A stretch of DNA of 8,219 nt from Streptosporangiaceae bacterium (GTDB taxonomy: Bacteria; Actinomycetota; Actinomycetes; Streptosporangiales; Streptosporangiaceae). The notes under the pieces were generated by a model. That model was not told the origin of the DNA, ran no database searches, and saw nothing but the letters and a program-made list of their open reading frames with translations. The position numbers and the translations under genes were made by a program. The stretch covers positions 1-8,219 of the forward strand of contig JASHOI010000688.1 in NCBI GenBank assembly GCA_030041195.1. Reading direction: 5' to 3'. Positions 737 through 4,488 of the stretch are shown here, in pieces (position 1 is the first letter of the stretch; every line of letters starts with the position of its first letter).

Positions 737-2185
737 ATGTCCACTGAAGCCGTCCCGTTCAAGGTCGCCGACTTGTCGCTTGCCGAGTTCGGCCGCAAGG
801 AGATCCGGCTCGCCGAGCACGAGATGCCGGGACTGATGGCGGTGCGCGGGGAGTTCGCGCGCTCCCAGCCGCTGCGCGGCGCCAGGATCACCGGGTCCCT
901 GCACATGACCATCCAGACCGCGGTGCTGATCGAGACGCTGGTGGCGCTCGGCGCCCAGGTGCGGTGGGCGAGCTGCAACATCTTCTCCACCCAGGATCAC
1001 GCGGCGGCGGCGGTCGCCGTGGGCCCGGACGGCACGCCGGAGGACCCGAAGGGCATCCCGGTGTTCGCCTGGAAGGGCGAGACGCTGGCGGAGTACTGGT
1101 GGTGCACCGAGCAGGCGCTCACCTGGCCGGGGCAGCCGGGACCGAACATGCTGCTCGACGACGGCGGGGACGCCACGCTGCTGGTGCACAAGGGCGCGGA
1201 GTTCGAGGCGGCGGGCGCGGTGGCCGAGCCCGCCGACGACGACCCCGAGGAATGGCAGGTGATACTCGCATCGCTGCGAGCTTCGCTGGCCGCCAACCCG
1301 CGCAAGTGGACCACGATGGCCGACGAGATCAAGGGCGTGACCGAGGAGACCACCACCGGGGTGCACCGGCTGTATGAGATGGCCAGGGCCGGCACGCTCA
1401 AGTTCCCGGCGATCAACGTCAATGACTCGGTGACCAAGTCGAAGTTCGACAACAAGTACGGCTGCCGGCACTCGCTGGTCGACGGGATCAACCGGGCCAC
1501 CGACGTGCTCATCGGCGGCAAGGTGGCCGTGGTGTGCGGGTACGGCGACGTGGGCAAGGGCTGCACGGAGTCGCTGCGTGGCCAGGGCGCGCGGGTGATC
1601 GTCACCGAGATCGACCCGATCTGCGCGCTGCAGGCGGCCATGGACGGGTTCCAGGTCGCGCGGCTGGAAGACGTGGTGGCCACCGCGGACATCTTCGTCA
1701 CCGCGACCGGCAACTACCAGATCATCACCGCCGAGCACATGAGCCAGATGAAGCACCAGGCGATCGTGGGAAACATCGGTCACTTCGACAACGAGATCGA
1801 CATGGCCGGCCTGGCCCGCCTGCCTGGCGTGCGCCGGACCAACATCAAGCCGCAGGTGGACGAGTGGACCTTCCCGGACGGGCACTCGGTGATCATCCTG
1901 TCCGAAGGCAGGCTGCTGAACCTGGGCAACGCCACCGGGCACCCGAGCTTCGTGATGTCCAACAGCTTCACCAACCAGGTCATCGCCCAGATCGAGCTGT
2001 TCACCAGGGGCGAGGAGGAGTACCCGCTCGGCGTGCACGTGATCCCCAAGCACCTGGACGAGAAGGTGGCCCGGCTGCACCTGGACGCGCTCGGCGTGCG
2101 GCTGACCACGCTGACCAAGGAGCAGGCGAACTACATCGGCGTCCCGATCGATGGTCCCTACAAGTCGGACCACTACCGCTACTGA
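737..2185 (+). CDS. ahcY: S-adenosylhomocysteine hydrolase (adenosylhomocysteinase)
   Basis: This NAD-dependent cytosolic enzyme reversibly splits S-adenosylhomocysteine into adenosine and homocysteine, removing the product inhibitor of methyltransferases in the activated methyl cycle. The 482-residue product is full length for the actinobacterial form and includes the roughly 40-residue insert (about 150-198) seen in many bacterial enzymes. Visible landmarks: SLHMT (H56, T58), [10 protein letters not shown] (79-88), LDDGGD (140-145), TEETTTG (202-208), [11 protein letters not shown] (229-239, with catalytic K234 and D238), the NAD-binding GYGDVGKG (268-275), [17 protein letters not shown] and the C-terminal KSDHYRY that reaches the NAD of a neighbouring subunit. 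Nothing needed for activity appears missing. It is the first gene of a two-gene unit with the SAHH-like gene two bases downstream. I did not find a canonical SAH riboswitch in the 117-bp leader. Confidence 0.97.
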
Positions 2186-2187
2186 GC

Positions 2188-3459
2188 ATGTCCGGCAGCA
2201 ACCAGGCCGAGCTTCCCGATCCGGGCCAGGCCGCCGCCGGCCAGGCCCGGATCGGCTGGGCGGAGCGGGCCATGCCCGTGCTGGGCCTGATCCGGGACGT
2301 GTTCGAGCGGGAGCAGCCGTTCGCCGGGCTCCCCGTCGCGGCGTGCCTGCATGTCACGCCGGAAACCGCGGTGCTGGTGAACCTGCTTACGGCCGGAGGC
2401 GCTGAGCTGCACCTGGCCGCGTCCAACCCGCTGTCCACCCAGGACGACATCGCGGCGGCCCTGGCCGCTTCGGCGGCGGTCAAGGTGTACGCCAGATCGG
2501 GCGTGGACCGGCGCACCTACTACGAGCACATCCACCGGGCCCTGGACGCTGGGCCCGCCCTGGTCATCGACGACGGCTGCGACCTGGTGAACACGCTGCA
2601 CACCGAGCGCCAGGAATTGCTCGCGGGAGTGCGCGGCGGCTGCGAGTCGACCACCACGGGTGTGGCCCGGCTGCGCCGGATGACGGCCGAGGGCACGCTC
2701 GCGTTCCCGATGGTTGCGGCAGACGACTCGCGTACCAGGCGCCGGTTCGACAACTTCCTCGGCACCGGGCAGTCGGTGATCGACGGGATCCTTCGCGCCA
2801 CCAACACGCTGCTGGCCGGCCAGGTGGTCGTGGTGGCGGGCTTCGGGTCGTGCGGCAGCGGGATCGCGGCGCGGGCCAGCGGGCTCGGCGCCCAGGTCAT
2901 CGTCACCGAGGTCGATCCTGACCGGGCCCTTGACGCGCTCATGCAGGGGTTCCGGGTGCTGCCGATGGCCGAGGCCGCGCCGCTCGGGCAGGTGTTCATC
3001 ACCGCGACCGGCTCGCGTGACGTGATCGGACCCGGGCACATGGCGGCGATGCGCGACGGCGCGATCCTGGCGAACGCCGGCCACTTCGACGTCGAGATCG
3101 ACGTGCGCGGGCTGGCCGAGCTTGCCGTCGCGGTCCATCCCTCCGTGCGCCCGCACGCCGACGAGTACCTGCTGGACGACGGCAGGCGGCTAATCCTGCT
3201 GGCCGAGGGCCGGGTGGTCAACCTCGTCGCCGCCGAGGGAAACCCGGCAGCGGTGATGGACCTGTCGTTCGCGGTGCAGGCGCTCGCCCTGGCCTGGCTT
3301 GGAAACGAGCAGGACCCCCTGGCGCCGGGGGTGCACGAGGTCCCTTCCGAGATCGACGCCCAGATCGCGGCGCTCGCGCTCGCGTCGCTGGGCACCGAGA
3401 TCGACGCGCTCACGCCATCTCAGCAGGAGTACCTGGACTCCTGGCGGCAGGGCTCGTAG
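2188..3459 (+). CDS. Second SAHH-family protein, Thermotoga/archaeal-like clade, altered active site
   Basis: A 423-residue SAHH-fold protein. The ATG is two bases after the ahcY stop without a clear Shine-Dalgarno, so it is probably translationally coupled; homology upstream of the internal Met29 (GWAERAMP) supports this start. Conserved: CLHVT (53-57, H55, T57), SNPLSTQDD (79-87), IDDGCD (127-132), FDN (187-189), Rossmann GFGSCGSG (218-225), NAGHFDVEID (296-305, H299) and N345. The SNPLSTQDD, GTGQS, MDLSF and LTPSQQEYLDSW signatures, the lack of the bacterial insert and the lack of a C-terminal HYRY tail match the shorter Thermotoga/archaeal type, as I recall it, not its neighbour. Substitutions against human AHCY: E156 to S154, K186 to R184, N181 to D179, H353 to N352. 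C195 to T193 is probably harmless, since active homologues have Thr. It may be a divergent hydrolase for another thioether nucleoside, or an inactive partner of AhcY. Family certain, activity unknown. Confidence 0.9.
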   Translation: MSGSNQAELPDPGQAAAGQARIGWAERAMPVLGLIRDVFEREQPFAGLPVAACLHVTPETAVLVNLLTAGGAELHLAASNPLSTQDDIAAALAASAAVKVYARSGVDRRTYYEHIHRALDAGPALVIDDGCDLVNTLHTERQELLAGVRGGCESTTTGVARLRRMTAEGTLAFPMVAADDSRTRRRFDNFLGTGQSVIDGILRATNTLLAGQVVVVAGFGSCGSGIAARASGLGAQVIVTEVDPDRALDALMQGFRVLPMAEAAPLGQVFITATGSRDVIGPGHMAAMRDGAILANAGHFDVEIDVRGLAELAVAVHPSVRPHADEYLLDDGRRLILLAEGRVVNLVAAEGNPAAVMDLSFAVQALALAWLGNEQDPLAPGVHEVPSEIDAQIAALALASLGTEIDALTPSQQEYLDSWRQGS

Positions 3460-3489: not shown

Positions 3490-4488
3490 GACGGGCGGGG
3501 CGAAGCCGCCATGCGCGGGCGGCTCGTGCCCTGCGGGCACCGTCGGCCCGGGCACAGCCGGGCCGCCAGGTACGCCGGAGCCGTCTTCTACGCCCGGGTC
3601 ACCGGACACGCCCGGGCCGCCGGGTACGCCCGGGCCGCCGGGTACGCCCGGGTCACCGGACACGCCCGGGCCGCCGGGAACGCCCGGCACCGGGGCGGGC
3701 GGCCAGCCGGGGTACGGTCCGGCCGCGGTGGCCTGCATGGCCGTGAGCCGGGCCATTTCCCGGTGCCGCCGCACGGCGAGCACCGCCGACAGGAAGGCGG
3801 CGGGCGGGGTGCCCGGCGGCGGAGGCGGGGTGATCTGGGCGGCCACCGCCGCGGCGATCCGCTGCCCGAACTCGTCCCTGGCGGCCGGTGTCAGCTCGTA
3901 GAAGCGGCGAAGGTAGCTGCTCGCCTGCTCCGCGGTCTGGTCGCTCAGCCCGGACAGTTCGAGCGCCTGCGCCCAGCCAGCCAGCGGGGGCGGCACGACC
4001 GCGAGCGCCGGCGGAAGCCCTGGCCTGCGCGGCAGCCGCTCCTGGATCACGAACGTCCCGGCGAACAGGTCGCCGAGCCGCTTCCCCTTGGCGGACAGCA
4101 GTGAGCAGATCAGTGCGGGCGCACCGGTGAGGAACCAGATCTCCAGGAGCGCCGCGCTCGCCCGCCAGAAGGCCTGCCGGAACCGCACGGGGCCGCCGTC
4201 GTCGCTGACCACCCGCAGCCCCAGGGCCAGCTTTCCCAGCGATTTGCCGCGGCTCAGCGTCTCGAACGTGGTCGGGTAGACGACAAAGATCAGCACGAAC
4301 GCCGCGATCCCGATCGCGGCCAGCGCTGCCGCGTTCAGGTGGCCGGCCGTCGAGGCGACGACCCCGAACACCACGGCGGCCATGACGAGCTGGACCGCCA
4401 TGTCGATGATGATGGCGACCATGCGGCTGGGGAAGCGCGCACACGGGACGTCGAGGACCACGGCCTCGCCGGTGACCACCTCGGTCAT
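3487..4488 (-). CDS. RDD-family membrane protein with collagen-like C-terminal tail
   Basis: A 333-residue protein. The N-terminal half is an RDD domain: R22 in RFPSRMVAIIID, D29, and the second conserved Asp at D140 in GKRLGDLFAGT. Hydrophobic segments lie at about 24-46, 55-75 and 112-132, with a loop TLSRGKSLGKLALGLRVV (77-94) typical of the family. Residues 150-265 are a soluble region with a Pro-run (220-229). Residues 269-301 are eleven uninterrupted Gly-X-Y triplets (GVP, GGP, GVS, GDP types), followed by an imperfect continuation to the C-terminus. The ATG at 4488 has GGGAG seven bases upstream. RDD proteins are thought to be membrane transporters or accessory proteins, but most, including this one, lack an assigned substrate. 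It is divergent from the SpoIIM-like gene, its usual companion. Confidence 0.88.
   Translation of the reverse strand: MTEVVTGEAVVLDVPCARFPSRMVAIIIDMAVQLVMAAVVFGVVASTAGHLNAAALAAIGIAAFVLIFVVYPTTFETLSRGKSLGKLALGLRVVSDDGGPVRFRQAFWRASAALLEIWFLTGAPALICSLLSAKGKRLGDLFAGTFVIQERLPRRPGLPPALAVVPPPLAGWAQALELSGLSDQTAEQASSYLRRFYELTPAARDEFGQRIAAAVAAQITPPPPPGTPPAAFLSAVLAVRRHREMARLTAMQATAAGPYPGWPPAPVPGVPGGPGVSGDPGVPGGPGVPGGPGVSGDPGVEDGSGVPGGPAVPGPTVPAGHEPPAHGGFAPPV
3591..3680. repeat. 18-bp tandem repeat encoding Gly-X-Y triplets
   Basis: Five contiguous 18-bp units start at 3591, 3609, 3627, 3645 and 3663. Two types alternate: CGCCCGGGTCACCGGACA (units 1 and 4) and CGCCCGGGCCGCCGGGTA (units 2, 3 and, with one change, 5). 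Degenerate flanking copies extend on both sides. Read on the minus strand each unit encodes six residues, two Gly-X-Y triplets, of the RDD protein tail. Copy number is likely to vary between strains. Confidence 0.9.

Follow-up and report, generated by a model that had tools for sequence, protein, structure and literature searches.

SAH hydrolases (SAHHs) are central to the SAM/SAH balance of the cell, and hence to methylation. To our knowledge, dedicated pseudoenzyme relatives of SAHHs are known from animals only, and in the open-licence PMC literature we found no report of a tandem or an inactive bacterial SAHH partner. Long SAHHs, as described in PMC10978960, are tetramers whose tails cap neighbouring NAD sites. 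In the mouse enzyme, following PMC4647836, the 2'-OH is bound by Glu156 and Asp190 and the 3'-OH by Thr157 and Lys186, of which Lys186 is proposed to donate a proton to the 3'-keto group; the 5'-OH is held by His55, Asp131 and His301, and His353 touches the adenine through main-chain atoms only. AHCYL1 and AHCYL2 (IRBIT) are SAHH paralogues reviewed as inactive through substitutions in the catalytic site (PMC12955632, PMC7060199). A complex between AHCY and AHCYL1 is disputed in PMC12955632; a heteromultimer is claimed in PMC7060199. Another relative with a changed role is the actinobacterial AgmF, the Streptomyces angustmycin dehydratase, which is annotated as an SAH hydrolase and which, by the account in PMC8599513, does not act on SAH, keeps and needs Lys184 and Asp188, and sits in a nucleoside cluster. 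Euryarchaeal and Thermotoga S-inosylhomocysteine hydrolases are short forms, with no insert and a short C-terminus. The motif HxTxE has been linked to SAH, and HxExK to S-inosylhomocysteine (PMC10978960).

The stretch of DNA analysed here (the window, 8,219 nucleotides from a Streptosporangiaceae bacterium) carries two SAHH genes on its forward strand. The upstream gene, at 737..2185, is a canonical long-form ahcY of 482 residues (TIGR00936, 638 bits; PF05221) in which EETTT, NDS, the catalytic Lys, GHP and the HYRY tail are all intact. Its TGA stop occupies 2183-2185, and after a gap of two bases (2186..2187) the ATG of the downstream gene follows at 2188, an arrangement that makes translational coupling of the two genes probable. 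The downstream gene (2188..3459) is an intact frame of 423 codons. Its product scores 546.5 bits against the TIGR00936 ahcY profile (cut-off 497.6), which places it in the SAHH family by sequence, and it carries both PF05221 (AdoHcyase) and PF00670 (AdoHcyase_NAD). It has the motifs SNPLSTQDD, GTGQS and MDLSF, without the insert of about 40 residues and without the HYRY tail. An AlphaFold2 model built on a 26-row alignment has a pLDDT of 86.8 and superimposes on solved SAHHs with TM-scores of 0.90/0.89 (1b3r) and 0.87/0.91 (3x2e). The initial annotation had described an SAHH-fold gene two bases behind ahcY, with short-form signatures and neither insert nor tail, and the sequence bears this out. 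All source-named entries among the best 120 of 7998 homologues are labelled adenosylhomocysteinase, an automatic name that conceals a second, altered copy.

Upstream of the pair, on the opposite strand, lies a MerR-like frame scoring 27.5 bits, slightly below the Pfam cut-off; downstream are genes that Pfam assigns to RDD, SpoIIM, DUF58 and MoxR-type AAA. Within the reverse-strand RDD-domain gene, positions 3558-3687 form a tandem repeat of 18, 36 and 54 bases that encodes a collagen-like PGVPGGPGVSGDPG repeat. No RNA family, SAH riboswitches included, reached its gathering score in a scan of 10 sources, and ten frames around locus L030 of a Thermoleophilaceae genome, which recurs below, gave no functional lead with Pfam.

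Set against its relatives, the downstream protein belongs with the short forms. It shares fold, length, NAD loop and the adenine and 5'-side residues with the SAHHs of Synechocystis (7o5l), Pyrococcus (7r37) and Sulfolobus (7r39), being 53% identical to 7o5l and 7r37 in Foldseek alignments. It differs from canonical short forms in that its equivalents of Glu156, Lys186 and Asn181 are replaced and in being encoded directly behind a long ahcY. Its identity to the adjacent AhcY is 37% (BLASTP, 1e-90). In a 74-row IQ-TREE quick tree, which held no animal rows, the split between long and short SAHHs has 100% SH-aLRT support. This identity and this fully supported split led us to reject a recent duplication of ahcY, in keeping with the proposal in the initial annotation that the second SAHH came from a different clade. 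Within the tree, the closest company of the window protein is P0003 and further tandem copies that are altered, inside the tandem clade of the actinobacterial family surveyed below and adjoining canonical tandem copies.

It resembles AHCYL1 and AHCYL2 in being an SAHH paralogue with substituted catalytic residues, although the residues lost in the AHCYL proteins are, we take it, different ones. The SAHH match begins at residue 8-11 and no extra domain was found, which leaves no room for the IRBIT N-terminal domain; matches to 3mtg and 3gvp are weaker, at about 241-243 bits, where those to short-form SAHHs reach 392-467 bits. With no such room and a place among the short forms, we do not file the protein as an AHCYL member, and regard it as similar in its working at most. 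From AgmF it differs in having Arg184, with Asp188 retained. The S-inosylhomocysteine hydrolases are like it in length, in lacking the insert and in their short C-terminus. Its residues 55-59 read HVTPE, however, which is the SAH-type HxTxE of PMC10978960 and not HxExK, and this disfavours S-inosylhomocysteine as a substrate and, with it, the suggestion in the initial annotation of a deaminated nucleoside thioether. Other SAHH-like genes turned up along the way. Locus L045 (982-2784, genome G002) encodes a third, more distant protein, 37% identical to the window protein over 15-395, with an HLEPK (HxExK) motif, about 175 residues of open frame ahead of its SAHH match and the Thermotoga and Pyrococcus SAHHs as its best solved relatives. 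Six genomes of the class of L031's genome (G708, G715, G727, G735, G738 and G744) have second SAHH-like genes, 48-52% identical to the archaeal query.

What sets the window copy apart is its active site. Codon 154 (TCG, 2647..2649, forward strand, as are all four) gives Ser for the Glu equivalent to mouse Glu156, the 2'-OH contact; codon 184 (AGG, 2737..2739) gives Arg for the catalytic Lys equivalent to mouse Lys186, the acid/base at the 3'-OH (roles from PMC4647836). Codon 179 (GAC, 2722..2724) gives Asp for the Asn of NDS, and codon 352 (AAC, 3241..3243) gives Asn for the His of GHP. All four substitutions named in the initial annotation are thus present, but they are not of equal weight. 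Among the best 120 of 7998 homologues passing the E-value cut-off, position 154 is Ser in 119 and position 184 is Arg in 119, whereas position 179 varies (Asp 89, Asn 23, Glu 8), as does position 352 (Asn 79, His 25, Ser 16). Residues fixed in this way at 154 and 184 make sequencing error an unlikely source, and we reject it. Position 352, where the contact described in PMC4647836 is main-chain only and where 8 of the 31 non-tandem forms in the first scan have Ser (one of the 31 is truncated before it), is not diagnostic. The telling changes are those at 154 and 184; of the four to which the initial annotation gave meaning, these two stand, 352 falls away, and 179, varying within the clade, is weaker evidence.

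Only five differences, defined by 95% or more on each side, are fixed between the window clade (121 rows) and 114 canonical short forms: E154S, V178A, K184R, N276S and L343V. Two of them, E154S and K184R, lie in the catalytic site; V178A, a change that the initial annotation does not mention, adjoins position 179. At the ribose site, then, the equivalents of Glu156, Lys186 and Asp190 are Ser, Arg and Asp, two of the three being replaced. Other parts of the site are retained: His55, Asp131 and His301, the adenine contacts Thr57 and Glu59, the equivalents of Asn191, Thr158 and Thr159, and the NAD glycine loop. The initial annotation had seen correctly that NAD-binding and several substrate-binding residues remain. 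(PDB 1xwf bears the title of a K185N mutated SAHH.)

The pair recurs far beyond the window, which answers a question that the initial annotation had raised. In one actinobacterial family, that of the genome of locus L001, 285 of 297 genomes have a short-form match better than 1e-90 and 12 do not. Of its loci, 115 were read in which the short frame is unbroken; 114 of them have a piece of long ahcY directly upstream on the same strand, and the remaining one starts at a contig edge. A class sample of 296 genomes yielded 84 with a short form and one more that is truncated, and 9 of the 38 loci read outside the family are tandem, with L181-L183, L185, L191, L192 and L201 counted in the family and not in the rest of the class. 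In the order to which L030 belongs, 61 of 121 genomes have the short form, and 42 of the 60 loci read are tandem. These loci came mostly from the head of the match lists and are a non-random sample. Tandem gaps, measured to the first matched codon, are below 150 bases in 138 of 165 cases. Elsewhere the short form is solo (for example in Nanopelagicaceae, a Coriobacteriales class and a halophilic archaeal class) or lies apart from the long ahcY. Judged from these sequences, the tandem pair of ahcY and short SAHH is old and widespread.

Across this collection the short copy has lost catalytic residues again and again. Of 166 tandem copies, the window included, 119 have another residue in place of Glu154, Lys184 or Asp188 (mouse E156, K186 and D190): 71/114 in the family, 9/9 outside it and 38/42 in the order of L030. 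The replacements are unlike. Position 154 in the 114 tandem family copies is Glu (43), Gln (41), Ser (15), Ala (9), Gly (4) or Thr (2), and position 184 is Lys (95), Arg (15), Thr (3) or Gly (1). The nine tandem copies outside the family have Gln (4), Gly (3), Asp (1) or Glu (1) at 154 and Arg (5), Lys (3) or Met (1) at 184, and in four of them His55 has become Pro. In the order of L030, 36 of 42 tandem copies have Glu at 184, and all 36 also carry D188N and N189D, so that KxxFDN reads ERxFND. (L262 and L263, with split frames, are excluded from the residue counts, and the truncated L029 from the conserved-residue and context counts.) The most strongly altered lineage seen is that of the tandem copies L243-L246, with His55 to Pro, E154Q, N345G and H352S. 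Another fixed alternative active site, combining K184H, N179H, D188E and H352Y, occurs in the short forms L222 and L224-L227 of L030's order; these have no long ahcY directly upstream, the long gene lying 4-5 kb off where one contig bears both (4/5 genomes).

The long partners tell a different story. All 159 AhcYs of these loci, the window's own included, retain the Glu, Asn, Lys and His, and YRY closes every one of the 166 long ORF ends examined. Short forms on their own are likewise conservative. Where the genome search found no long AhcY, 23 of 24 short forms keep Glu, Lys and Asp and one is altered, "no long AhcY" here meaning match counts with first-look candidates partly scored and many genomes possibly incomplete. 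In the class sample, the loci outside the family that are not tandem are all canonical (29/29), as are those of the halophilic archaeal and Coriobacteriales classes (60/60, two being re-fetches of L031 and L028), and none of the other 30 non-tandem loci of the first scan is altered (a search of five of those genomes found one match in each). Copies whose genome has a long gene elsewhere, by match counts, are altered in 8 of 21 cases, all eight in the order of L030 and 0/10 outside it; L059, L163 and L235 are excluded from this genome-context comparison. The loci read from that order include 18 non-tandem copies, and 10 of these are altered, namely the eight just mentioned together with L154, for which no long gene was detected, and L163, which lies at a contig edge. 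Such copies argue against the tandem context as a strict condition for loss, and the 47 of 166 tandem copies that keep all three residues show that the pair does not require it.

We counted changes by Fitch parsimony on FastTree trees built without the trait columns; dropping near-identical rows had left 191 of 245. Tandem branches carry 21 events, 10 of them at E154, 8 at K184 and 3 at D188, with 10 first-loss lineages; three events fall where the long gene is elsewhere and one on solo branches. The corresponding branch lengths are 41.3 for tandem plus elsewhere and 15.1 for solo, with 14.4 for the AhcY tree, which has no event. Per branch length, first-loss lineages (12 vs 1) give p 0.10 against solo branches alone and 0.009 with the AhcY tree added; all events (24 vs 1), which are not independent of one another, give p 0.004 and 2.6e-5. 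Phylogenetically independent contrasts of tandem with solo number 2 to 4 pairs only, which is too few. The excess of losses is thus suggestive for tandem over solo short forms, and clearer for the short copy over its long partner. On these trees, loss of catalytic residues from the short copy appears to have happened repeatedly, in some ten lineages, with replacements that differ between them. The ancestor of the tandem copies was probably active. The initial annotation had named orthologues with the altered positions restored as evidence that would count against its reading. They do exist outside the window's own clade, 43 of the 114 tandem family copies keeping Glu154, Lys184 and Asp188. We read such orthologues as a sign of repeated loss from an active ancestor and not of one odd enzyme.

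The altered set was selected by positions 154, 184 and 188, so only other positions are informative about it. All 119 altered tandem copies keep the equivalents of Thr57, Glu59, Asp131, Thr157, His301, Glu243 and the three NAD-loop glycines, and 113 keep His55. The equivalents of Asn191, Thr158 and Thr159, which we take to be cofactor-side residues, are changed in 51, 26 and 10 of the 119 respectively, so NAD binding is not assured in every altered copy; none is changed in the window. Without that selection, the most changed of the 121 positions conserved in solo forms include E154 (altered in 49% of tandem copies) and K184 (39%), but also positions that we did not count as catalytic, for example F285, V226 and N62.

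Our preferred reading, held tentatively and close to an even call, is that the window copy is an SAHH that binds NAD but is impaired in catalysis and that probably serves AhcY as partner or regulator, comparable to AHCYL1 while lying outside that family. Loss centres on residues that meet the ribose 2'- and 3'-OH, and those for the adenine, the 5' side and the NAD glycine loop are kept; this is the pattern of a ligand binder without redox chemistry. The protein would hydrolyse SAH poorly or not at all, and would still bind NAD and an adenine nucleoside (SAH or adenosine). Could it be an ordinary second isoenzyme instead, its substitutions tolerated and SAH still hydrolysed, perhaps more slowly or in other conditions? 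The score above the ahcY equivalog cut-off would suit this, as would the 43 of 114 tandem family copies with all three residues, and K>R and E>Q are mild changes that may leave activity. Yet the three residues contact the 2'- and 3'-OH, Lys186 being the proposed acid of the 3'-keto step (PMC4647836); K>E, K>M, K>T, D>N and H55>P in other tandem lineages are hard to reconcile with hydrolysis; and the long AhcYs are invariant at these sites (159/159). We consider an isoenzyme distinctly doubtful. A relaxed, redundant duplicate on its way to loss strikes us as very improbable. Redundancy with AhcY could permit it, eight of 21 non-tandem copies with a long gene elsewhere are altered, and two of the first 110 loci taken from the family, L262 and L263, have the short frame broken in two, whether as pseudogenes or, possibly, through sequencing errors. 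Apart from these and L029, truncated at a contig edge, the sampled copies run almost full length in a single frame, and both Ser154 and Arg184 are fixed among the best 120 of 7998 homologues. Frame breakage in copies of L030's order flagged "stops inside" was rejected, none being among the split or short frames. Median dN/dS (NG86, rough on GC-rich genes) is 0.187 for 87 altered tandem pairs, no higher than for canonical copies, whether tandem (0.219, 58 pairs) or non-tandem (0.184, 40 pairs); long-gene values (0.25-0.27) exceed those of the short genes, so only like-for-like short comparisons were used. By this measure the relatives of the short copy are under purifying selection.

More serious is the case for a neofunctionalised NAD-dependent enzyme acting on another adenine nucleoside, its new sugar site shaped by Ser154 and Arg184 (or by ERxFND in the order of L030). 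The altered residues are fixed within clades and not drifting, Ser154 and Arg184 each in 119 of the best 120 of 7998 homologues, and all 36 tandem copies with Glu184 also have Asn188 and Asp189; the NAD glycine loop, Asp131 and His301 persist in every altered copy and His55 in 113. There is a precedent, too, in AgmF, an SAHH fold that does not take SAH and acts on angustmycin C (PMC8599513). In AgmF, however, the key catalytic residues are intact, and the variants K184A and D188A are described there as dead. The genes in question adjoin ahcY and are not in a nucleoside cluster, and replacements so unlike between lineages make a single shared new substrate unlikely. We think a new enzyme unlikely, if by no means far-fetched.

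A catalytically impaired partner of AhcY, which the initial annotation had listed among its possibilities, thus remains the best fit to the pattern of residue loss and to the conservation of the tandem. For a protein encoded next to AhcY, with a fold whose long members form tetramers, a partner subunit is the simplest guess. The short copy would be made together with AhcY as its non-catalytic partner, most likely entering mixed tetramers in which activity or cofactor occupancy is tuned by ligand, and the C-terminal tail of AhcY could provide the part missing from the short subunit. A larger proposal, which we regard as possible rather than probable, is that the pair is an old two-subunit module of Actinomycetota for handling SAH, in which an active AhcY is joined by a pseudo-SAHH, a binder of NAD and of SAH or adenosine that sets the output of AhcY. 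A bolder branch of the same proposal would have Ser154 and Arg184 in the window's clade recognise a ribose bearing an anionic group, for example that of a 2'- or 3'-phosphorylated adenine nucleoside. If the two-subunit module is real, methylation potential in these bacteria would be under a dedicated SAH sensor, in which catalysis has been lost some ten times in parallel. A bacterial pair in which nature itself supplies a series of copies, from intact through half-altered to strongly altered, would also make non-catalytic SAHH subunits testable in simple systems.
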